Assembly: GCA_019359125.1 (NCBI GenBank)
Contig: JAHHHY010000001.1
Coordinates: 682,001-746,000 of the forward strand
From: Pleurocapsa minor GSE-CHR-MK 17-07R
Lineage (GTDB): Bacteria > Chloroflexota > Anaerolineae > Aggregatilineales > Phototrophicaceae
Length of the DNA stretch: 64,000 nt
Reading direction: 5' to 3'
Positions 4,736-31,356 of this stretch are shown here, piece by piece. The notes below the pieces were generated by a model. It made no database searches. It had not been told where the DNA came from and was given only the letters and a program-made list of their open reading frames with translations. How positions within the stretch are numbered: position 1 is the stretch's first letter; every line of letters begins with the position of its first letter. Position numbers and translations under genes: made by a program.

Positions 4736-5497
4736 ATGACAGACTATAAGCTCAATCGGCTGGAAGCCGGCATCGAACAGCTTATCGAGGGTGCATTCGC
4801 GCAGATTTTTGGCAAATCTGTGCAGCCGCACGACCTCGCGCTGGCGCTTGCCCGGGCGATGGAAGCCTCCGCTGCCCCCGCCGCCAATCCACTTGAATCC
4901 CCTACTGCCCCCAACAGTTTCGTCATCCACCTGTGTCCGGACGAACATGCCCGGCTGATGGAGTCGGCCCCGGACCTCGAAAACAGATTCGGAAATCATC
5001 TGGTTCATCTGGCTGGCGACCTTGGCCTGCGCATGCCCCGACGCCCGCAGGTGCATATGATCGCAGACCTCACCCTGGCACGCGGCGAAGTGCAGGTGCA
5101 TGCCGGGCATGTGACGCAGAAAAAGACCGACACCAGTTTACTGGAACCTGTGTACAGTCCGGCTGTGCCCGCCGCACCATCGGCCACGCTGTATCTGGAA
5201 AGCGGCAACGACTTTGCGCTCCATATGCCTTTCGTGACGATCGGGCGCGCTTTGGACAATCAGCTGGTGCTGGAAGACCAGCACGTCTCGCGCCACCACG
5301 CGCAGATTCGCCTGCGTTTTGGCCGCTATACGCTGTTTGATCTGGGCAGCCAGTCGGGCACCTTTGTGAACGAGTCCCGCGTGCGCGAGGTCCTGCTGCA
5401 ATCCGGCGACGTCATCCGGCTGGGGAAAACCCGCATCGTGTACATGGACGATGTCGAACATGAAGCCACAGCCGCTTTTTCCCCGCTGGATGAGTGA
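4736..5497 (+). CDS. fhaA: FhaA-like protein: DUF3662 domain + FHA domain
   Basis: The 253-residue protein has an N-terminal DUF3662/FhaA_N region (residues ~1-115: LNRLEAGIEQLIEGAFAQIF, VQPHDLALALARAME). A short linker leads to a C-terminal FHA domain (~150-240) with the phosphothreonine-binding signature GRALDNQLVLEDQHVSRHHA and GSQSGTFVNE. In mycobacteria FhaA binds phosphorylated partners of the cell-wall machinery, including MurJ. Here the next genes are a second FHA protein and, further on, a SEDS/PBP pair, as in the actinobacterial fhaA-fhaB-pstP-rodA-pbpA-pknA-pknB cluster. No kinase or phosphatase gene is present in this stretch. MurJ lies about 7 kb downstream. The stop overlaps the next gene by 4 nt. 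Confidence 0.85.
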   Translation: MTDYKLNRLEAGIEQLIEGAFAQIFGKSVQPHDLALALARAMEASAAPAANPLESPTAPNSFVIHLCPDEHARLMESAPDLENRFGNHLVHLAGDLGLRMPRRPQVHMIADLTLARGEVQVHAGHVTQKKTDTSLLEPVYSPAVPAAPSATLYLESGNDFALHMPFVTIGRALDNQLVLEDQHVSRHHAQIRLRFGRYTLFDLGSQSGTFVNESRVREVLLQSGDVIRLGKTRIVYMDDVEHEATAAFSPLDE

Positions 5498-5949
5498 GCA
5501 GGTCCCCCGTGAACATCGAGCTCATCACCCTGCTGCGCGCGATATCAGGCGTCCTGCTGTTTACCCTGCTGCTGGCCCTGATGTGGCTGGTCTGGCGTGA
5601 CCTGAAAGCGACCGAACAGCAGGTCAGCTCCGGGCGACGCCCGCTGGGCCGCCTGACTGTAGTCGAGCCGGTCGGCAAGACATTTATTCCCACAGGGCAG
5701 ATTTATCCCCTGCTCACCGTCACCACCATCGGTCGCTCACCCGGCAGCACCATCATGATCGACGACTCGTTTGTGAGCAGTGAACACGCGGTCATCGCGA
5801 TGCGCGGCGGGCAATGGTGGCTGGAAGACCGGGGCAGCCGCAACGGCACGCAGCTCAACGACATGACCATCGCCCAGCCCGTCATCGTCACCAACGGCGA
5901 CATCGTGTGCGTGGGGCAAAAACGCTTCCGCATAGAACTGGAGCACTGA
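5494..5949 (+). CDS. fhaB: FhaB-like protein: transmembrane helix + FHA domain
   Basis: The 151-residue protein has one N-terminal membrane helix (residues ~6-32, LLRAISGVLLFTLLLALMWL) and a C-terminal FHA domain (~65-151) with GRSPGSTIMIDDSFVSSEHA and RGSRNGTQLND. The start is GTG 5494, overlapping fhaA's stop (GTGA); an in-frame GTG at 5509 is an alternative. FhaB/FipA-like proteins recruit phosphorylated division or wall proteins at the membrane in mycobacteria, and the gene order here supports a similar role. The phospho-ligand and its kinase are not visible in the window. Confidence 0.85.
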   Translation: MSRSPVNIELITLLRAISGVLLFTLLLALMWLVWRDLKATEQQVSSGRRPLGRLTVVEPVGKTFIPTGQIYPLLTVTTIGRSPGSTIMIDDSFVSSEHAVIAMRGGQWWLEDRGSRNGTQLNDMTIAQPVIVTNGDIVCVGQKRFRIELEH

Positions 5950-6756: not shown

Positions 6757-7635
6757 ATGTCTGACAATATTCACATTGGCATCATCGGTGGGTCTGGCCT
6801 GTATGACATGCCCGGCCTGACGGATATTGCGCGGGTCAGCGTCGATACCCCGTTTGGTTCGCCCAGCGGCGAGATCGTGACTGGCACACTGCGCGGCAAA
6901 CGCGTGGCCTTTCTGCCGCGCCACGGCGTCGGCCACGTCTTCACCCCCTCGACCGTGCCCTATCGCGCCAATATCTGCGCGCTCAAGATGCTCGGCGTCC
7001 GCTTTATCGTGGCGGTCAATGCGTGCGGATCGCTGCGCGAAGACTATGCGCCCGGCGACATCGTCATTCCCGACCAGCTGATCGACATGACGAAAAACGA
7101 GCGTGACCGCACCTTTTTCGATACCGGGCTGGTCGGCCATGTCACGATGGCGGAGCCCTTCAGCCCGCAGATGAACAAGGTCCTCGCGCAGGCTGTGCGC
7201 GCTGCGGGCGGGCGCGCCCATGAAGGCGGCACATTTGTCACCATTGAGGGGCCGCGCTTCAGCACGCGCGGGGAAAGCCATCTGTTCCGCCAGTGGGGAT
7301 GCAGCATCATCGGCATGACCACCTGCCCGGAGGCATTTCTGGCGCGCGAGGCAGAAATCGCCTATGCCACCATGTCGCATGTCACCGATTACGATGTGTG
7401 GCACACATCTGAAGAGGCCGTCACCGTGGAGATGGTGATCGCCACCTTCAACAAAAACGTGGCCCTGGCGCGCCAGGCCGTGGCTGAGGCCGTCGCTCTG
7501 ATTGATAAATCCGCCGACTGGCCGGCACATCATGCCCTGGATGGCGTTGTGATGACGCATCCAGAGAAGATTCCGGCATCTGTCAAGTCGCGCCTGGGGC
7601 CCGTGATGGGCAGGCTGTTCACCAGCGCGCCATGA
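6757..7635 (+). CDS. mtnP: S-methyl-5'-thioadenosine phosphorylase
   Basis: The 292-residue protein is of the PNP/MTAP family. IGIIGGSGLYDMPGL, FLPRHGVGHVFTPSTVPYRA and NACGSL form the phosphate and ribose sites. GMTTCPEAFLAREAEI and TDYDVW carry the Asp that marks adenine over hypoxanthine preference in MTAP. It converts methylthioadenosine and phosphate to adenine and methylthioribose-1-phosphate in methionine salvage and polyamine by-product recycling. AAGGAAG precedes the ATG. The stop overlaps the SEDS gene start by 4 nt, so salvage and wall genes share a transcript. This is probably organisational rather than functional. Confidence 0.93.
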   Translation: MSDNIHIGIIGGSGLYDMPGLTDIARVSVDTPFGSPSGEIVTGTLRGKRVAFLPRHGVGHVFTPSTVPYRANICALKMLGVRFIVAVNACGSLREDYAPGDIVIPDQLIDMTKNERDRTFFDTGLVGHVTMAEPFSPQMNKVLAQAVRAAGGRAHEGGTFVTIEGPRFSTRGESHLFRQWGCSIIGMTTCPEAFLAREAEIAYATMSHVTDYDVWHTSEEAVTVEMVIATFNKNVALARQAVAEAVALIDKSADWPAHHALDGVVMTHPEKIPASVKSRLGPVMGRLFTSAP

Positions 7636-8945
7636 GCACGCTGTCCGCAGTCCCCCTCGCCGCCCCGGCCGTCGTGCAGACCCGGCAGCCGCGCCACAGC
7701 GCGCTTTACCTGCTGGTGCTGGCGGGCGTGTTTCTGGTCGTCAACGCGCTCCAGGTCACCCTGGTCACCGGCAATCCGCGCGTATGGCTGGGCATCGCCA
7801 CCTGGATTGCCTGCACGGGCATTGGCTGGATCCTGACGCGTCGGCTGCTGGCAGGCACAGACCGGCTGATTTTCGCGACATGTATGGTGATGTCTGGCTG
7901 GGGACTGCTGATGATCTACCGCCTGCTGCCCAATTTTGGCGATCGGCAGGCCGTCTGGCTGGTCGTCGGCACAGTCGCCATGCTGACGGCCTTGCGCTTC
8001 CCTGACCTGCTCGGCCGAATGAGACGCTATCGCTACAGCATCCTGTTGGGCGGGACGCTGCTGCTGCTGGCGACAATTCTGTTTGGCACCAATCCCAGTG
8101 GCTTCGCATCTGCACCCGCCCTGTGGCTGGGCACGGGCAGCGTCTTCTTTCAACCCAGCGAGCTGCTTAAAATCGTGCTGGTGGTGTTTCTGGCCAGCTA
8201 TCTCGCCGAACAGTATCCAGTCCTGCGCAGCGCGGCATTGTTCGAGCGCAAACGGCGCCTGTTCCTCGCCCCGCGCATCGCCGGGCCAGTGGTGCTGATG
8301 TGGGGCATCTGTGTGGTTATTCTGGTCTGGCAGCGCGACCTGGGCACGGCGATTCTGTTTTTCGCGCTGTTCGTCTGCCTGCTCTATGTCGCCAGCGGAT
8401 CAAACTGGGTGCTGGTGGCTGCGGCGGGCCTGATTCTGGCTGCCGGGGCCGTCGCCTATTTTCTGTTTGATGTGGTGCAGTTGCGCGTCGATATCTGGGT
8501 TAATCCGTGGATCGACCCGGACAATCGCGCCTACCAGATCGTGCAAAGCCTGATGACCTTCTCGGCAGGGGGCGTATTCGGCCAGGGCATCGGCCTCGGC
8601 TATCCGTCATACGTGCCGGTCATCCATTCAGACTTCATGTTCGCCGCCATTGCCGAGGAGTTCGGCTTTCTGGGCGTCATCACCGTGATCGCGCTGCTGA
8701 TGGTGCTGGTCTCGCGCAGTTTTCGAATTGCTGCGCTTCAGCAGGGCAAGCCTTACCAGACGCTGCTGGCAGTAGGTTTTTGCAGCCTGATTGCCGTGCA
8801 AAGCCTGATGATCATGGGGGGCGTCGTGAAAATCATCCCGCTGACTGGCGTCACCCTGCCGTTTATCAGCTATGGGGGCAGCTCGCTGGTCGTCAGCTTC
8901 TTCATGGTGGGCATCCTGCTGCGCCTGTCCGCGGTGAAAGGATAG
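7632..8945 (+). CDS. rodA: SEDS-family peptidoglycan glycosyltransferase (RodA/FtsW type)
   Basis: The 437-residue protein has about 10-12 membrane helices. The SEDS signature regions are conserved: QRDLGTAILFFALFVCLLYV, a DPDNRAYQIVQSLMTFSAGG loop, GQGIGLG and HSDFMFAAIAEEFGFLG (Asp at residue 334), ending with SYGGSSLVVSFFMVGILLRL. SEDS proteins polymerise lipid II together with a cognate class B PBP. The neighbouring gene 7 nt downstream is such a PBP homologue but catalytically dead (see 8953-10371). Gene order with FHA genes resembles actinobacterial rodA-pbpA; FtsW versus RodA cannot be decided from sequence. Confidence 0.93.
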   Translation: MSTLSAVPLAAPAVVQTRQPRHSALYLLVLAGVFLVVNALQVTLVTGNPRVWLGIATWIACTGIGWILTRRLLAGTDRLIFATCMVMSGWGLLMIYRLLPNFGDRQAVWLVVGTVAMLTALRFPDLLGRMRRYRYSILLGGTLLLLATILFGTNPSGFASAPALWLGTGSVFFQPSELLKIVLVVFLASYLAEQYPVLRSAALFERKRRLFLAPRIAGPVVLMWGICVVILVWQRDLGTAILFFALFVCLLYVASGSNWVLVAAAGLILAAGAVAYFLFDVVQLRVDIWVNPWIDPDNRAYQIVQSLMTFSAGGVFGQGIGLGYPSYVPVIHSDFMFAAIAEEFGFLGVITVIALLMVLVSRSFRIAALQQGKPYQTLLAVGFCSLIAVQSLMIMGGVVKIIPLTGVTLPFISYGGSSLVVSFFMVGILLRLSAVKG

Positions 8946-8952
8946 CCCGTCG

Positions 8953-10371
8953 ATGGTGCCTTTCGCGCGCGAATCCCAGCGTATCATGCTGGCCATCCTG
9001 GTCGGATTCATCGTCATTGCGATTGGCGCGTTCCAATGGGCCGTCATCATGCCCGACAGCCTGAACACCCGCGATGACAATCCGCGCGCTGTCGAACGTG
9101 AGCGCCGTATCGTGCGCGGCGACATTTATTCCGCCGACGGACTGCTACTGGCCCATACAGACGTCAACGATGCAGGTATCGTCACGCGCCAGTATTCAGT
9201 CGCCGAGGCATGGCCCGGCCTGGGCTATTACAGCATGGTCCGCGGGGCTGCGCGCATCGAAGGCGCCTTTGACACAATATTGCGCGGTGACAGCGCCGAG
9301 GCTGCGCTCTCCAATCGGCTGCTGCATACGCCCATTCAGGGGACCAACATTCGCGTCACCCTGGACAGCGCCGTGCAGCGCATGGTATCCGAAAGACTGG
9401 ATGGGCAGGCCGGAGCGGCGGTGGCCATCAGCATCCCGGACGGGCGTATGCTCGGTATCAGCAGCGCGCCAGTCTTTGACCCGAATTCCATTGATGCTGA
9501 CTACGAGAGACTGCGTGAAGACGCGGCGATGCAGCTGCTGGACCGGGCCACCGAGCGCCGCTATCCGCTGGGCACCGCCATTCAGCCCGTGCTGATGATC
9601 GCCAGCCTGCTCACCGGCCAGCCGCTGGATGCCATGATCGACAACGCCACCGAGCCGGTCGATCTGTCTGACGCACTATCGATAGGATGTGCCGTTCGCC
9701 TGCCAGCACTCTCGCTGACCCTGCGCGAGGCCTTCGCCTTCGCCTGTCCCACGCCCTTCATCGGCGCGACCAACGCCGTGGGCGAGACCGCCATGAACAC
9801 AATTTTTGAGCAGGTGGACGCGCTCACTGCCGTGCGTATTTCCGGGTACGAAAGCGCGGCTCCGGCAGCGCAGATACGTGGCTACACCCCGATAGAAGGG
9901 ATGGAAGCCGTCGTCACTGGACAGGCAGACCTGACCGTCTCGCCGCTGGCGATGGCCATCCTCACAGGAGCGATCGTGAATGATGGCAACACACCCGTGC
10001 CGTTCATGCTCGATGCGACGCTTGCCCCTGGCGCGTCTACATGGGTGCATGCACCTCGTCCAACGCGTACCATCGCCTTCACGACAGCGACGACGGCGCG
10101 GCGTTTGCAGGACCTGATGCGCTATAACGTGGTCAATGGTGCGGCGCAGAATGCTGCCCGACCCAATATCGACATCGGCGGACATGTGGGCCTCGCCTAT
10201 GTCGATGGCCGCCCGATGTCATGGTTCATCGGCTTTGTCACCGCATCCGGTCGACAGGCCGGCGCAGTGGCTATCCTGCTGGAGGACACCTCAGATACCG
10301 GCCTTGCAGCAGACATCGGCGGCGATATTTTGGCGGCTGTCCACGCCTCACTACTGGCAGAGAACCCTTAG
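8953..10371 (+). CDS. pbpA: PbpA-like class B penicillin-binding protein homologue, catalytically degenerate and lysine-free
   Basis: The 472-residue protein has one N-terminal membrane helix (~11-33) and a PbpA-type fold (RRIVRGDIYSADGLLLAHT, then a transpeptidase-like domain to the end). Flanking sequence aligns well with PbpA, but each catalytic motif is lost. The SxxK site is TAIQ (208-211, in RYPLGTAIQP), the SxN site is ACP (264-266), and KTG is HVG (411-413, before LAYVDGRPMSWFIGF). I find no lysine anywhere in the protein, so neither catalytic Lys can exist. The frame is intact and packed 7 nt after the SEDS gene, so it is a maintained pseudoenzyme, not a decayed gene. A structural or activating partner of the SEDS enzyme is the natural inference. 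It overlaps the convergent PHP gene by 4 nt. Confidence 0.9.
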   Translation: MVPFARESQRIMLAILVGFIVIAIGAFQWAVIMPDSLNTRDDNPRAVERERRIVRGDIYSADGLLLAHTDVNDAGIVTRQYSVAEAWPGLGYYSMVRGAARIEGAFDTILRGDSAEAALSNRLLHTPIQGTNIRVTLDSAVQRMVSERLDGQAGAAVAISIPDGRMLGISSAPVFDPNSIDADYERLREDAAMQLLDRATERRYPLGTAIQPVLMIASLLTGQPLDAMIDNATEPVDLSDALSIGCAVRLPALSLTLREAFAFACPTPFIGATNAVGETAMNTIFEQVDALTAVRISGYESAAPAAQIRGYTPIEGMEAVVTGQADLTVSPLAMAILTGAIVNDGNTPVPFMLDATLAPGASTWVHAPRPTRTIAFTTATTARRLQDLMRYNVVNGAAQNAARPNIDIGGHVGLAYVDGRPMSWFIGFVTASGRQAGAVAILLEDTSDTGLAADIGGDILAAVHASLLAENP

Positions 10372-11256: not shown

Positions 11257-12867
11257 ATGACTTCGACATACCCTGAAAACGACCACTTCCATGGCCCCCC
11301 GCGCCTGCTGATCTGGTTCGCAGTTGTGTTCATCGTGGCGGTGCTGCTGGCCGTCATCGGTGTGTTTCTCTTTGCCACAGGCGGCGGACGCCTGGGCGTG
11401 ACGATTCCATTTGTCGCCGTAGCTGCGGTCATCCTGCCCGTCGTCAGCATTGGCAGCGCCCTGCTGCTGCGTAAAGGCCTGCCGCGCCGGATGTGGCTGT
11501 GGCTGGTTGTGCTGTGGGGTGTGATTGCCCTGGGCGGCATTGTCGGCGGCGTGTTCTTCTTCCGCGATTCGCTGGAGCCACGCTACCAGGCCGAGCTGCT
11601 GAACTATGCCCCGTTCATGCGCCAGTTTATGCGCCCCACGCCGGCCGGCGGCGTCGTGCCAACTTCGGCAGCGGCGGTCAATAATCCCATTTCACCGGAG
11701 GACCTGCTCAATATGACGGTGGGCACGGCTACGCCACAACCTGAAGCCACAGGCGAGACGACATCACAGCCCACCCCTGAGCCCAGCGCCACCCTGGCAC
11801 CCAGCAGCACGCCGACACCCAGCCCACAGCCCACAGAAGCCGCGCTCGTGTCCACGGCCGAGACAGCCCTGGTGCCGGTCAGTGTACCCACGCTGTCGCC
11901 GCTGGTCAGCCAGGCGGCCAGCGTGCCCACCACCGCATTCATGTATGGTTTCCGCTGGGAGCGCCAGGAATGGAACAACTGCGGTCCGACCAACATCACC
12001 ATCGCACTGTCTCATTTCGGTTGGCAGGAAGACCAGAACTATGCCCAGCAGTTCCTGCGCCCGAATGCCGAAGACAAGAATGTCAGCCCGATTGAGCTGG
12101 TCAATTTCGTCAACACGCAGACAGGTGTGCGAGCGATTACGCGCCTTGGGGGCGATATGTTGCTGCTGAAGACGCTGATTGCCAATAACTTCCCCGTGCT
12201 GGTAGAGACTACGTTTACACCCGAAGGCTCCGACTGGCTGGGGCATTACCAGACAGTCGTGGGCTACGATGACAGCTCGCGCAATTTCTTCGTCTACGAC
12301 AGCTACCTGGGCACAGGCAGCGCCAACAGCGGCGTCCCGGAGCCCTACGAGCAGTTTGACCGCGACTGGCAGGCCTTCAACCGCGTGTTCATTGTGCTCT
12401 ACGAGCAGTCGCGCGAGGCCGAGCTGATCGGGCTGCTGGGCCCGCTGGCAGATGTAGAAGCAGCCGCAGAACGTGCGCTGGAAGTGGCACGGCAGGAAGC
12501 CCAGGCCGACCCCACCAGCCCGTTCCCCTGGTTCAATATGGGCACTTCCCTGGTGCGCCTCGGTGAATACGAACAGGCAGCGGCCGCCTATGATGCCGCC
12601 ACCCAGCGTCAGCTTCCCTTCCGCATGCTGTGGTACCAGTTCGGGCCATTTGAAGCCTACTTCAATACCGGTCGTTACGACGATGTAATGGGCCTGGTGC
12701 GCAACAATATCAACAATGCCGGCTCGTTCATCGAGGAAACCTACTACTGGGAAGGCCGGGTGCATGCCGCGCGTGGTGACATCGGCGCAGCCACCTCCTC
12801 GTTCCAGCGCGCACTAAACAACAATCCGCTGTTTACGCAGGCACAGGAAGCCCTGGACGATCTATAA
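11257..12867 (+). CDS. membrane protein with extracytoplasmic C39-like cysteine peptidase and TPR domain
   Basis: The 536-residue protein has three N-terminal membrane helices (~17-42, 47-70, 79-102), a Thr/Pro/Ser stalk (~155-225), and a papain-fold C39_2-type peptidase (~230-385). Cys242 lies in NNCGPTNITIA, His330 in LGHYQTVVGYD and Asp348 in FVYDSY. A TPR-like tail (~400-536) follows, with PFPWFNMGTSLVRLGEYEQA. There is no ABC transporter domain, so it is not a bacteriocin exporter. It is more likely a surface protease or transglutaminase-like enzyme presented outside the cell. It has its own promoter; murJ follows 46 nt later. Substrate unknown. Confidence 0.8.
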   Translation: MTSTYPENDHFHGPPRLLIWFAVVFIVAVLLAVIGVFLFATGGGRLGVTIPFVAVAAVILPVVSIGSALLLRKGLPRRMWLWLVVLWGVIALGGIVGGVFFFRDSLEPRYQAELLNYAPFMRQFMRPTPAGGVVPTSAAAVNNPISPEDLLNMTVGTATPQPEATGETTSQPTPEPSATLAPSSTPTPSPQPTEAALVSTAETALVPVSVPTLSPLVSQAASVPTTAFMYGFRWERQEWNNCGPTNITIALSHFGWQEDQNYAQQFLRPNAEDKNVSPIELVNFVNTQTGVRAITRLGGDMLLLKTLIANNFPVLVETTFTPEGSDWLGHYQTVVGYDDSSRNFFVYDSYLGTGSANSGVPEPYEQFDRDWQAFNRVFIVLYEQSREAELIGLLGPLADVEAAAERALEVARQEAQADPTSPFPWFNMGTSLVRLGEYEQAAAAYDAATQRQLPFRMLWYQFGPFEAYFNTGRYDDVMGLVRNNINNAGSFIEETYYWEGRVHAARGDIGAATSSFQRALNNNPLFTQAQEALDDL

Positions 12868-12913: not shown

Positions 12914-14533
12914 ATGACCGAACCATCCCGCACCGCGCAGCTTACGAGTTCTACCCTGATTGTCATGATCGCCTTCACCGCAGCGAAGGCGATCAGTTTT
13001 TTGCAGACCTTCATCATCGCCCGTTCGTTTGGCATCAGCGCCGAATATGATGCGTTCGTGGCCGCCAACCGGCTGCCGGAAGTCATCTTCAATCTGATTG
13101 CGGGCGGGGCGGTCGCATTCGCATTCATCCCGGTCTTCGCCGGGCTGCTGGCCAAAGACGATCGTTCAACTGCGTGGCGCACGGCCAGCACCGTGCTGAA
13201 CACTATCTTTGGCCTGACCGCAGTCGTCAGCATTCTCGCGTTTATCCTGTCACCGTGGCTGGTGCAAAACGCGATTGCGCCGGGTTTCCCGCCAGAAGTG
13301 CAGCAGCAGACGGCCGACATGATGCGCATCCTGCTGCTCAGCACGCTGATCTTCTCGATCAGCGGCACCGTCATGGGCATCCTGCAAAGCTTCAATCGGT
13401 TCCTGCTGCCGGCGCTGGCGCCCATCCTGTTTGACGTTGGCATCCTCATCGGCGTGATTTTCCTGCTGCCTGTGCTGGGTATCTATGGGCTGGCATGGGG
13501 CGCCGTGCTCGGTGCAGCGATGCATCTGGCGATTCAGGTGCCGGGACTGCTGCGCGTCGGCATTCGCTGGTCGGCCTCGCTGGACTGGCGCGCCCCGGAA
13601 TTCCGCCGCATCCTCATCCTGTTTGTCCCGCGCATGCTCGATCTTGCGCTCGTCAGCGTGAGCAGCATCGTCGTCACCAACCTGCTCTCGCGCCTCGGCG
13701 AAGGGGCCACCAGCGCCTATGACTGGGGCTGGCGGCTGATGCAGATTCCCGAAACCCTGATTGGTACGGCGATGGGCATCGTGATATTCCCCACGCTGGC
13801 GTCGCTCAGTGCGCTGGGTGACGTCAGCGGCAAACGCGCTGCGTTTTCCGGCTCACTGCGTTTCATCCTCATCGCGACCATCCCCAGCGCGGTGCTGCTG
13901 ATCGCGGCGGGACTGCCCATCCTCAGCCTGCTGGAAGGCGGCGCCTTTGACGCCTCGGCCACGCAGCTGGTGTATTCGGCGCTGGTTTGGTTCTCGTTTG
14001 GCATTGTCGTCCATTCCATCCTGGAAGTCGTCGCGCGCAGTTTTTATGCGGACAAAGACACGCTCGTGCCGCTTTTGGTTGCTGTCGGCGGCGCAGCCGT
14101 GAACATCATCGTCGCACTCGTCTTCAGCGGCGTGCTGACCGGTGATGTGCGCCCGGAAAATGTGGGTGCGCTGGCGCTGGCCAATACGCTCGGCGTGCTG
14201 TTCGAGGTGATCGCGCTGGGAATCGTGCTGCGCAAACGCTGGCATGGCCTGGATGAAACACATATCGGCCGCGTGATGGTGAAGGCGATTGCGGCCAGCA
14301 TCGTCATGGGTGCGGTCGCGTTTGGCGTGAATCTTGTCCTGGAAACCGTCGGGCTGACCGGCGGCGTGGTCGTGACCGTGATTCGCGTGGGATTGATCGT
14401 GGCGGCTGCGCTGGTCACCTTCATCGGCGCATCTTATCTGCTGCGCATCGAGGAAGTTAAGATTTTCCTGTCACAAAGCGTCAGTAAAATTCGCGACACC
14501 ATCACGCGCAAACCGGCGCAGGCGGCAGCATGA
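12914..14533 (+). CDS. murJ: lipid II flippase MurJ
   Basis: The 539-residue polytopic protein (about 14 helices) is of the MviN/MurJ family, with FLQTFIIARSFGISAEYDAF, AANRLPEVIFNLIAGGAVAFA and the conserved SRLGEGATSAYDWGWRLMQIP helix. It flips lipid II to the outer face for the SEDS/PBP system encoded nearby. In mycobacteria MurJ is regulated through FhaA, and a FhaA homologue lies about 7 kb upstream. The stop overlaps the downstream metallo-hydrolase by 4 nt. Confidence 0.92.
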   Translation: MTEPSRTAQLTSSTLIVMIAFTAAKAISFLQTFIIARSFGISAEYDAFVAANRLPEVIFNLIAGGAVAFAFIPVFAGLLAKDDRSTAWRTASTVLNTIFGLTAVVSILAFILSPWLVQNAIAPGFPPEVQQQTADMMRILLLSTLIFSISGTVMGILQSFNRFLLPALAPILFDVGILIGVIFLLPVLGIYGLAWGAVLGAAMHLAIQVPGLLRVGIRWSASLDWRAPEFRRILILFVPRMLDLALVSVSSIVVTNLLSRLGEGATSAYDWGWRLMQIPETLIGTAMGIVIFPTLASLSALGDVSGKRAAFSGSLRFILIATIPSAVLLIAAGLPILSLLEGGAFDASATQLVYSALVWFSFGIVVHSILEVVARSFYADKDTLVPLLVAVGGAAVNIIVALVFSGVLTGDVRPENVGALALANTLGVLFEVIALGIVLRKRWHGLDETHIGRVMVKAIAASIVMGAVAFGVNLVLETVGLTGGVVVTVIRVGLIVAAALVTFIGASYLLRIEEVKIFLSQSVSKIRDTITRKPAQAAA

Positions 14534-30576: not shown

Positions 30577-31308
30577 TCAGGGAGTCATCGTGAAGACTGC
30601 CGTCTGCCCGGTCGGCTGGTTGTTGACCAGAAACTGCACTTCCCATGTACCAGGGCTGAACGTCACATCGGTCGGCTCGATATAGAACCACAGACAGAAA
30701 TCGGCATCATCCTGGGGAATCTGATAAGCGCTGTTGGAATAGACCACCTGCCCGGCTGTGCTCCATGTCGCGCTGATGGCTGTGCCGCCCAGCGCATTGA
30801 TGATGCGCGTCGTCGCATACAGCCGCGCGGAACCTGCACCCACCGTTGACTGTATCGAGACCGCGCAGCCATCGGAATCACGCACCGTCAGCGCCACCCC
30901 CACCTGTGTGAGCTGATTGACCGCGCCGCCTTCGGGAATAGGCTGATTCGGGTCCGCGGTGGGCATCGCATCAATCGGCCCCATCATGCCGGGCGTCACC
31001 GGGCCGGAATTGGCGACGATCTGCTGTGTCGGCGGAATAGCCGCACGCATGGTGGAGGCAAGCTGCACATTGACCCCATCCACGTTGGCGGCTTCTGTGC
31101 GGGCAACAGCAGCAGTTGCAGCCACCAGCGTGGCGCGCGCATTGATGCCCAGCGCAATCTGCGTGCTTTCGTCAGCGAATGCAGTCACCTCGGCGGCCAG
31201 CGTGGCGCGGGTATCGTTACTGTTCACAATGCCACAGCCAGCCACCAATACACACAGCAGCCACAAGCCCAGCAGCCGTACAATTCTGGAAGAAACGAAG
31301 GGTCGCAA
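30577..31308 (-). CDS. putative lipoprotein of unknown function
   Basis: The start is TTG 31308, with AGGA about 7 nt upstream. The 243-residue protein begins with a lipoprotein signal peptide (LLGLWLLCVLVAGC, Cys25 as lipidation site). An Ala/Thr-rich helical segment (~35-85) and a Pro-rich patch precede a beta-sandwich-like C-terminal domain (~130-243: SDGCAVSIQSTVGAG, WFYIEPTDVTFSPGTWEVQF). No enzymatic motif is seen. Its position upstream of the SH3 and M23 genes suggests an envelope role. Confidence 0.7.
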   Translation of the reverse strand: MRPFVSSRIVRLLGLWLLCVLVAGCGIVNSNDTRATLAAEVTAFADESTQIALGINARATLVAATAAVARTEAANVDGVNVQLASTMRAAIPPTQQIVANSGPVTPGMMGPIDAMPTADPNQPIPEGGAVNQLTQVGVALTVRDSDGCAVSIQSTVGAGSARLYATTRIINALGGTAISATWSTAGQVVYSNSAYQIPQDDADFCLWFYIEPTDVTFSPGTWEVQFLVNNQPTGQTAVFTMTP

Positions 31309-31347
31309 GCAGGTGTCCTGTCGGCATATGCGAGCACAATGCCCGCT

Positions 31348-31356
31348 ATTCTACCA
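31348..31356 (-). promoter_or_regulatory. extended -10 promoter of the lipoprotein gene
   Basis: On the minus strand, TGGTAGAAT (31356-31348) lies 40 nt before the TTG start. It is back-to-back with the tRNA promoter. Confidence 0.4.

Follow-up and report, generated by a model that had tools for sequence, protein, structure and literature searches.

A PbpA-type class B penicillin-binding protein without catalytic motifs as the likely structural partner of a SEDS glycan polymerase in Anaerolineae

The locus was examined within a window of 64,000 nucleotides, by which we mean the whole stretch of DNA analysed, from Pleurocapsa minor GSE-CHR-MK 17-07R (Chloroflexota, Anaerolineae, Aggregatilineales). 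Two FHA genes and a phosphorylase gene precede a SEDS gene of the RodA/FtsW family, and the end of this gene at 8945 is separated by 7 bases from the ATG at 8953 of a gene for a class B penicillin-binding protein, or PBP (Table 1). Downstream of the pair lie genes for a C39-like peptidase/TPR protein (11257–12867, plus strand) and for MurJ (12914–14533, plus strand), which are also found after the PBP gene in some near relatives.

Table 1. Coordinates of the genes and protein features of the SEDS–PBP cluster in the window.
Feature	Position	Strand	Evidence
FhaA-like gene of the cluster	4736..5497	+	FhaA_N 76.3 bits, FHA 75.9 bits; upstream again in many relatives
FhaB-like FHA gene	5494..5949	+	Pfam; recurrence in relatives
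Phosphorylase (MTAP/PNP family), overlapping the SEDS start	6757..7635	+	PF01048 165.6 bits; precedes SEDS in many dead and intact relatives
SEDS glycan polymerase (RodA/FtsW family), 437 aa	7632..8945	+	PF01098 247 bits
SEDS Asp334, corresponding to the catalytic Asp262 in E. coli RodA	8631..8633	+	Alignment to 8tj3
Transpeptidase-dead PbpA-type class B PBP (pseudo-bPBP), 472 aa	8953..10371	+	Pfam, AF2, fold matches
N-terminal helix, presumed membrane anchor (residues 3–32)	8959..9048	+	Helix H3–32, AF2 model
Pedestal / PbpA dimerisation region (about residues 33–125)	9049..9327	+	PBP_dimer_2 at residues 55–121
Transpeptidase-fold domain without catalytic motifs (residues 154–456)	9412..10320	+	PF00905 match
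SxxK position, TAIQ (208–211)	9574..9585	+	Sequence, alignment
Cys246, invariant in 39/39 rows of order-level alignment A1	9688..9690	+	Alignment
SxN position, ACP (264–266)	9742..9750	+	Sequence, alignment
Cys265, invariant in 39/39 rows of order-level alignment A1	9745..9747	+	Alignment
KTG position, HVG (411–413)	10183..10191	+	Sequence, alignment

Translation of the PBP gene gave an open frame of 472 residues with no lysine and 34 arginines. The SxxK, SxN and KTG motifs are replaced by TAIQ (T208–Q211), ACP (A264–P266) and HVG (H411–G413), respectively, and a scan of the whole 472-residue protein found neither SxxK nor K[TS]G. A sequence-only reading of this DNA had described just such a lysine-free PBP, in an intact frame tightly spaced to a SEDS gene, and this description was confirmed by the translation, by the 7-base gap and by the PF01098 match and Asp334 of the neighbouring protein. 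The register of the motifs was taken from a HMMER alignment of a 39-orthologue profile to PbpA of Mycobacterium tuberculosis (3un7), which is independent of our own alignment. It placed YqpGgalQ under YPPGSTFK, fgCPapf under KSCNTAF and GhaalA under SKTGTA, in agreement with the earlier claim that the catalytic motifs are lost. The known mechanism together with the loss of these motifs implies loss of transpeptidase activity, and with the residues of acylation gone the protein should neither cross-link nor bind penicillin covalently.

Despite this loss the protein has the traits of a class B PBP of the PbpA type, with an N-terminal helix, a pedestal and a transpeptidase fold all present by Pfam, AF2, Foldseek and VIA. 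Pfam gave matches to Transpeptidase (54.7 bits, cut-off 22.1) and to PBP_dimer_2, the PbpA dimerisation domain (31.7 bits, cut-off 27). The AF2 model had a pLDDT of 91.7 and a pTM of 0.88, corresponding to a confident predicted PBP fold. Fold searches were carried out with the model of the window PBP only, and the best solved folds were PbpA-type PBPs, with Foldseek TM values of 0.64–0.74, normalised by query length, and VIA Z values of 40–42. The actinobacterial pbpA neighbourhood contains RodA and FHA genes, as does the cluster in the window. The window PBP resembles its actinobacterial counterparts of the PbpA type (M. tuberculosis PbpA, 3un7; Eggerthella, 4mnr; Atopobium, 4n1x) in its fold and PBP_dimer_2 pedestal, but M. 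tuberculosis PbpA has all three motifs while the window PBP has none, and according to their entry titles several of the actinobacterial proteins were solved in complex with beta-lactams. Catalytic residues that are gone, a fold retained in the predicted model and purifying selection, measured in relatives as given below, are together what is found in a pseudoenzyme.

An order-level protein search of 41 genomes, including that of the window, gave a match in all 41. One was a weak match to another PBP (G038) and in a second genome the gene was split across two contigs and was not counted (G006; L029, L049). None of the 39 order orthologues, the window included, had intact motifs when the loci were read through, and the consensus at the three positions was YQPGGxLQT, GCPxPF or ACPxPF, and GGHAALAY. 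The nearest relative of the window PBP had 48% identity at best. The orthologue profile was searched against 298 class genomes and 251 phylum genomes, and 80 class loci (L053–L132) and 20 loci of other classes (L164–L183) were fetched by hand for match strength and family spread. Among the 119 class loci (39 + 80), 105 were transpeptidase-dead and 14 intact, and in the other classes 19 of the 20 fetched loci were intact and one (L175) was dead and fused, both being biased frequencies from hand-picked loci. Two of the intact loci from other classes have KSG in place of KTG (L181, L183). By architecture the class loci comprised 54 separate and 28 fused dead untruncated forms, 11 separate and 12 fused dead truncated forms, and 14 separate intact forms. 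Among named genome contigs 31 loci were found, 23 of them under Chloroflexi or Anaerolineae-type titles (one Aggregatilineales); the others were one on a contig titled Bacteroidetes (L150, 38% identity) and seven weak ones (22–28%) in Clostridia, Clostridium and Planobispora. Loss of the motifs throughout the related loci, which the sequence-only reading had proposed to look for, was thus found across the order and in most of the class loci, and the intact close relatives that it named as contrary evidence were absent from the order set.

The residues that replaced the motifs were compared in 82 untruncated dead proteins including that of the window, two of which (L089, L106) are cut by contig ends. 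The column of the SxxK lysine contained lysine in 0 of 82, glutamine in 52 and glutamate in 20; that of the SxN asparagine contained proline in 80; and that of the KTG lysine contained histidine in 56, with no lysine or arginine and two rows gapped. This pattern of replacement indicates that the motif loss is more than chance. The absence of lysine from the protein as a whole was considered as a key trait of the clade and rejected, with zero lysines in only 20 of the 82 proteins (range 0–8; 0–5 among the order orthologues). The frames of the window are lysine-poor overall, with a median of 1.9% Lys in 40 long frames. A second long lysine-free frame of 257 codons from stop to stop, a putative gene at most, occurs at 30580–31350 on the minus strand.

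The history of the loss was followed on a SEDS tree of 124 rows, from which L018, L094 (short SEDS), L172 and L173 were omitted and which was rooted on the intact loci of other classes. Dead and intact states required three changes. The 98 main dead rows lay on one side of a branch with an SH-aLRT of 93.6, which is moderate and not decisive, and two dead loci, L105 and L175, were placed among the intact rows. Provided that the rooting on other classes is correct, this gives one old loss, covering the 98 rows with moderate support, and two further losses. Rooting on the two other SEDS proteins of the genome nested the intact rows within the dead, giving several losses, and was set aside in view of branches of 3.4 and 4.1. 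L105 adjoins the intact L059 with a support of 100, lacks the region from SxxK through SxN and retains KTG, and represents either a recent repeat-linked loss or an assembly artefact. A short tandem repeat with periods of 9–27 is present near 2038–2106 of L105, at the missing transpeptidase core.

The PBP of the window is encoded by a separate gene, but single SEDS–PBP frames were found in 40 of the 105 dead class loci, which are all 40 fusions among the 119 class loci. Fused and separate states required nine changes on the SEDS tree. L043 is the sole fusion among the 39 order orthologues, and an AF2 model of it gave a pTM of 0.73, with no inter-domain error map. Three frames of 900-odd codons (L030, L034, L039) were considered as fusions and rejected when their SEDS was read in another frame. 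Outside the class, L179 is a natural SEDS–PBP fusion that has all three catalytic motifs. The transpeptidase domain was shortened in 23 of the 105 dead class loci, and these truncated PBPs retain the N-terminal part of the profile, which corresponds to the helix and pedestal; truncated lineages lack the SxN region and the replacement signature. Several truncated proteins (L108–L111, L113–L115, L119, L120) have a pattern of their own that differs from that of the untruncated dead proteins, with a YPVGDLAR-like sequence at the former SxxK position and, beyond the former KTG, an end resembling TPxETG or PVETG. The sequence-only reading was confined to the one locus; the loss reaches far past it, arose more than once and accompanies fusion and truncation.

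The equivalent of RodA Asp262, a residue required for the activity of E. coli RodA according to PMC10449877, was aspartate in every readable SEDS row, comprising 79 of 80 dead untruncated rows (one gap), 20 of 20 dead truncated rows, 11 of 11 intact class rows, 16 of 16 intact rows of other classes, and L175. Upstream of SEDS, dead loci such as L057, L109 and L128 carry FhaA, FhaB and the MTAP-like gene, and so do intact loci such as L059 and L168–L171; in many other loci the set is partial or missing. This synteny, shared by dead and intact loci, supports their orthology. The SEDS gene was present in the same stretch as the PBP gene in 111 of the 119 class loci. Of the eight others, two end at a contig edge (L098, L116) and one has only 717 bases upstream (L085), while in five, three dead (L037, L108, L121) and two intact (L084, L092), SEDS was absent from the 1.4–6 kb upstream. 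At least three SEDS matches lie elsewhere in each of these five genomes, and the five unlinked loci show that the pair can come apart.

Selection on the PBP was estimated as dN/dS by the Nei-Gojobori method in pairs of relatives. Of the 16 pairs of dead PBPs, 15 gave 0.10–0.25 and the remaining pair 0.47; dS was saturated (above 1.5) in two of the 16. The SEDS neighbours of the 16 dead pairs gave 0.04–0.32, which was below the value of the PBP in all 16. Four intact pairs gave PBP values of 0.05–0.27, similar to or lower than SEDS in the three that include a SEDS, and the mixed pair L059/L105 gave 0.23. The earlier claim that selection keeps the gene was therefore upheld for the relatives, whereas the window copy is too diverged for an estimate of its own. 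A pseudogene was ruled out by the low dN/dS of the relatives together with the unbroken frames in the loci read.

Constraint on the parts of the protein was compared in bins of SEDS p-distance, using non-independent pairs (1284 dead and 89 intact at 0.4–0.5; 1274 and 232 at 0.5–0.6). At SEDS distances of 0.4–0.5 the pedestal distance was 0.546 in dead and 0.578 in intact pairs, compared to 0.690 and 0.587 for the C-terminal transpeptidase part and 0.550 and 0.480 for the N-terminal transpeptidase part. At 0.5–0.6 the corresponding values for dead and intact pairs were 0.607 and 0.621, 0.732 and 0.616, and 0.597 and 0.513. In the 0.6–0.7 bin the dead pedestal was slightly looser, at 0.680 compared to 0.639 (119 and 22 pairs). 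By these matched-distance figures, constraint on the pedestal is about the same in dead and intact PBPs, and the transpeptidase domain of the dead proteins is looser, though not free. Relaxed selection, which the sequence-only reading had regarded as evidence against a retained function, thus applies in part to the transpeptidase domain and not, or hardly, to the pedestal, whose conservation it had singled out for examination.

These data bear on two other readings of the dead domain. The first is that the dead active site acts as a ligand-binding sensor, which binds a stem peptide or other ligand unreacted and regulates the polymerase. The maintenance of the replacement signature (Gln or Glu in 72 of 82 proteins, Pro in 80, His in 56) and the invariance of Cys246 and Cys265, a possible disulphide pair, in the 39 rows of A1 are in its favour, but the 23 truncated dead loci of 105 lack the SxN region and the signature, and constraint on the transpeptidase part is weaker than in intact PBPs; a sensor is considered unlikely. 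The second is that catalysis became dispensable and the gene is a relic, slowly decaying on its way out. Greater divergence of the transpeptidase domain than in intact PBPs for a given SEDS distance, its truncation in several lineages and a PBP that evolves faster than its SEDS neighbour in 16 of 16 dead pairs would all fit such decay. The low dN/dS in 15 of the 16 pairs, the nearly unchanged constraint on the pedestal and the retention of the product of an old loss in many families argue against it and make a relic very improbable.

The genome of the window contains three SEDS genes, including the partner of the dead PBP. One of the two others adjoins MurG and Mur ligase family genes and the other is close to an intact PBP2-like gene and to genes for MinC and a MinD-like ATPase. 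The genome encodes four class B and two class A PBPs whose motifs are intact. Two of these class B proteins are of the MecA_N type, and a SEDS gene was not found on the contigs that carry them. A further class A PBP (L008:1–3201, plus strand; G000:C23 near 85030–85896; Transgly 123.6 bits, Transpeptidase 40.6 bits) carries GDAIQ and SYA at the places of GSTLK and SLN in its paralogue, with KTGT retained. It is a second case of a broken SxxK in the genome, this time next to a glycosyltransferase domain.

The MecA_N-type PBPs were counted in three groups of genomes: 75 dead-partner genomes chosen mostly for completeness, to which G046 was added; 33 intact-partner genomes; and 48 hand-chosen class genomes with a weak best profile match and no recognised locus. 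A match was found in 72 of 76 dead-partner genomes (71 of 75, plus G046), 16 of 33 intact-partner genomes and 22 of 48 genomes of the third group. The dead-partner genomes without a match were G338, which represents an independent loss, and G211, G112 and G324, and both G046 and its intact relative G114 have a MecA_N-type PBP. The raw counts are strong, but the Fisher tests of this association ignore ancestry, and because most of the dead group belongs to a single clade and G338 has no MecA_N match, the association is a lead only.

It could be proposed from these counts that the dead partner was selected to make the polymerase pair insensitive to beta-lactams, as a PBP without SxxK should escape acylation and some MecA_N-type PBPs are of low affinity elsewhere. 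Most of the association can, however, be put down to shared ancestry, G338 has no MecA_N match, and the four other class B PBPs of the genome keep SxxK, so that there is little likelihood of this explanation. Least probable of all is an enzyme still active through an active site rebuilt with Cys, Thr or His chemistry, for although Cys265 occupies the former SxN position and the KTG lysine is often replaced by His, the nucleophile column (Gly, Ala, Ser, Thr, others) and the lysine column (Gln, Glu, others) are variable, and the presence of Cys at the Cys265 column in 9 of 14 intact relatives indicates that Cys265 is probably ancestral and structural.

The most satisfactory explanation, and one we consider likely, is that a PbpA-type class B PBP was turned into a pseudoenzyme and retained as a structural activator of its SEDS glycan polymerase, with cross-links formed by other PBPs. 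The membrane helix and pedestal would hold and switch on the polymerase, the transpeptidase-fold domain would remain as a loosening shell that in some relatives has been cut down, and cross-links on the new strands would be made in trans by the other intact PBPs of the cell, perhaps those of the MecA_N type of class B. The role of activator or scaffold is inferred from constraint, from the fusions and from published pairs of SEDS and class B PBPs. It is suggested by the loss of motifs from a confidently predicted fold, the distribution of dead and intact loci, the conserved SEDS aspartate, purifying selection and pedestal constraint. The 40 fusions among 105 dead loci, the retention of helix and pedestal in truncated forms, the intact PBPs of the genome and published precedents point the same way. 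Against the activator role count at least three dead loci (L037, L108, L121) where 1.5–6 kb of upstream sequence contained no SEDS and the further SEDS genes of the genome lie on other contigs. The dead PBP also evolved faster than its SEDS neighbour in all 16 pairs, a difference absent from the few intact ones. The conserved replacement residues suggest that the pocket of the dead site may do something of its own, and the independent loss in G338, dead without a MecA_N match, counts against cross-linking by MecA_N-type PBPs in trans.

Among the published precedents, RodA is stimulated by the helix of PBP2, and single SEDS–PBP frames occur in nature (PMC10449877); changes in the pedestal of PBP2 activate RodA (PMC6207328). 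In Bacillus subtilis an inactive PBP 2B supports division given PBP 3, a PBP2A-like enzyme (PMC5656894), and SpoVD can in part do without its catalysis where SpoVE and PBP3 are involved (PMC12713402). In the other direction, the transpeptidase activity of PBP1 is essential in Staphylococcus aureus (PMC9426605), and coupling has been argued to prevent the formation of toxic uncrosslinked glycan (PMC6207328), so that uncoupling should be costly.

When the locus was compared with these systems both likenesses and differences were apparent. As in the RodA–PBP2 and FtsW–FtsI synthases, a SEDS protein with the catalytic Asp is encoded next to a class B PBP partner; unlike in those synthases the partner is without cross-linking motifs, in a genome that has two more SEDS and four intact class B PBPs. 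The engineered B. subtilis PBP 2B (S309A), with PBP 3 in trans, would share with the window PBP a structural role without catalysis. There a PBP2A-like PBP supplies the activity and the inactive protein is a laboratory mutant (PMC5656894), whereas here the loss is natural and occurs in many families. The natural fusions mentioned in PMC10449877 have the same SEDS-then-PBP order as those in 40 of the 119 class loci, all of which are transpeptidase-dead. Searches of open-licence papers gave no account of a class B PBP that is dead by nature and partners SEDS across a clade, though an earlier description may exist; the synthase of SEDS and class B PBP is already known, and its natural clade-wide form with a dead partner appears to be new.

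A broader account is conceivable, which we hold more tentatively than the activator role itself and place somewhat short of probable. In much of Anaerolineae a dedicated SEDS polymerase would have been permanently uncoupled from cross-linking by an old, fixed loss, leaving the class B PBP as a pure activator that was later fused several times and pared toward helix and pedestal, with cross-linking passed to MecA_N-type PBPs in trans.

The locus also carries a caution for annotation, as a protein annotated as 'penicillin-binding protein' may bind no penicillin. Possible activation of SEDS by class B PBPs independent of cross-linking has been studied with mutants in model bacteria. In these genomes a single pair occurs naturally in intact, dead, fused and truncated versions. 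Their comparison can delimit the smallest part needed for activation, and whether polymerisation is separate from cross-linking can be tested on them directly.
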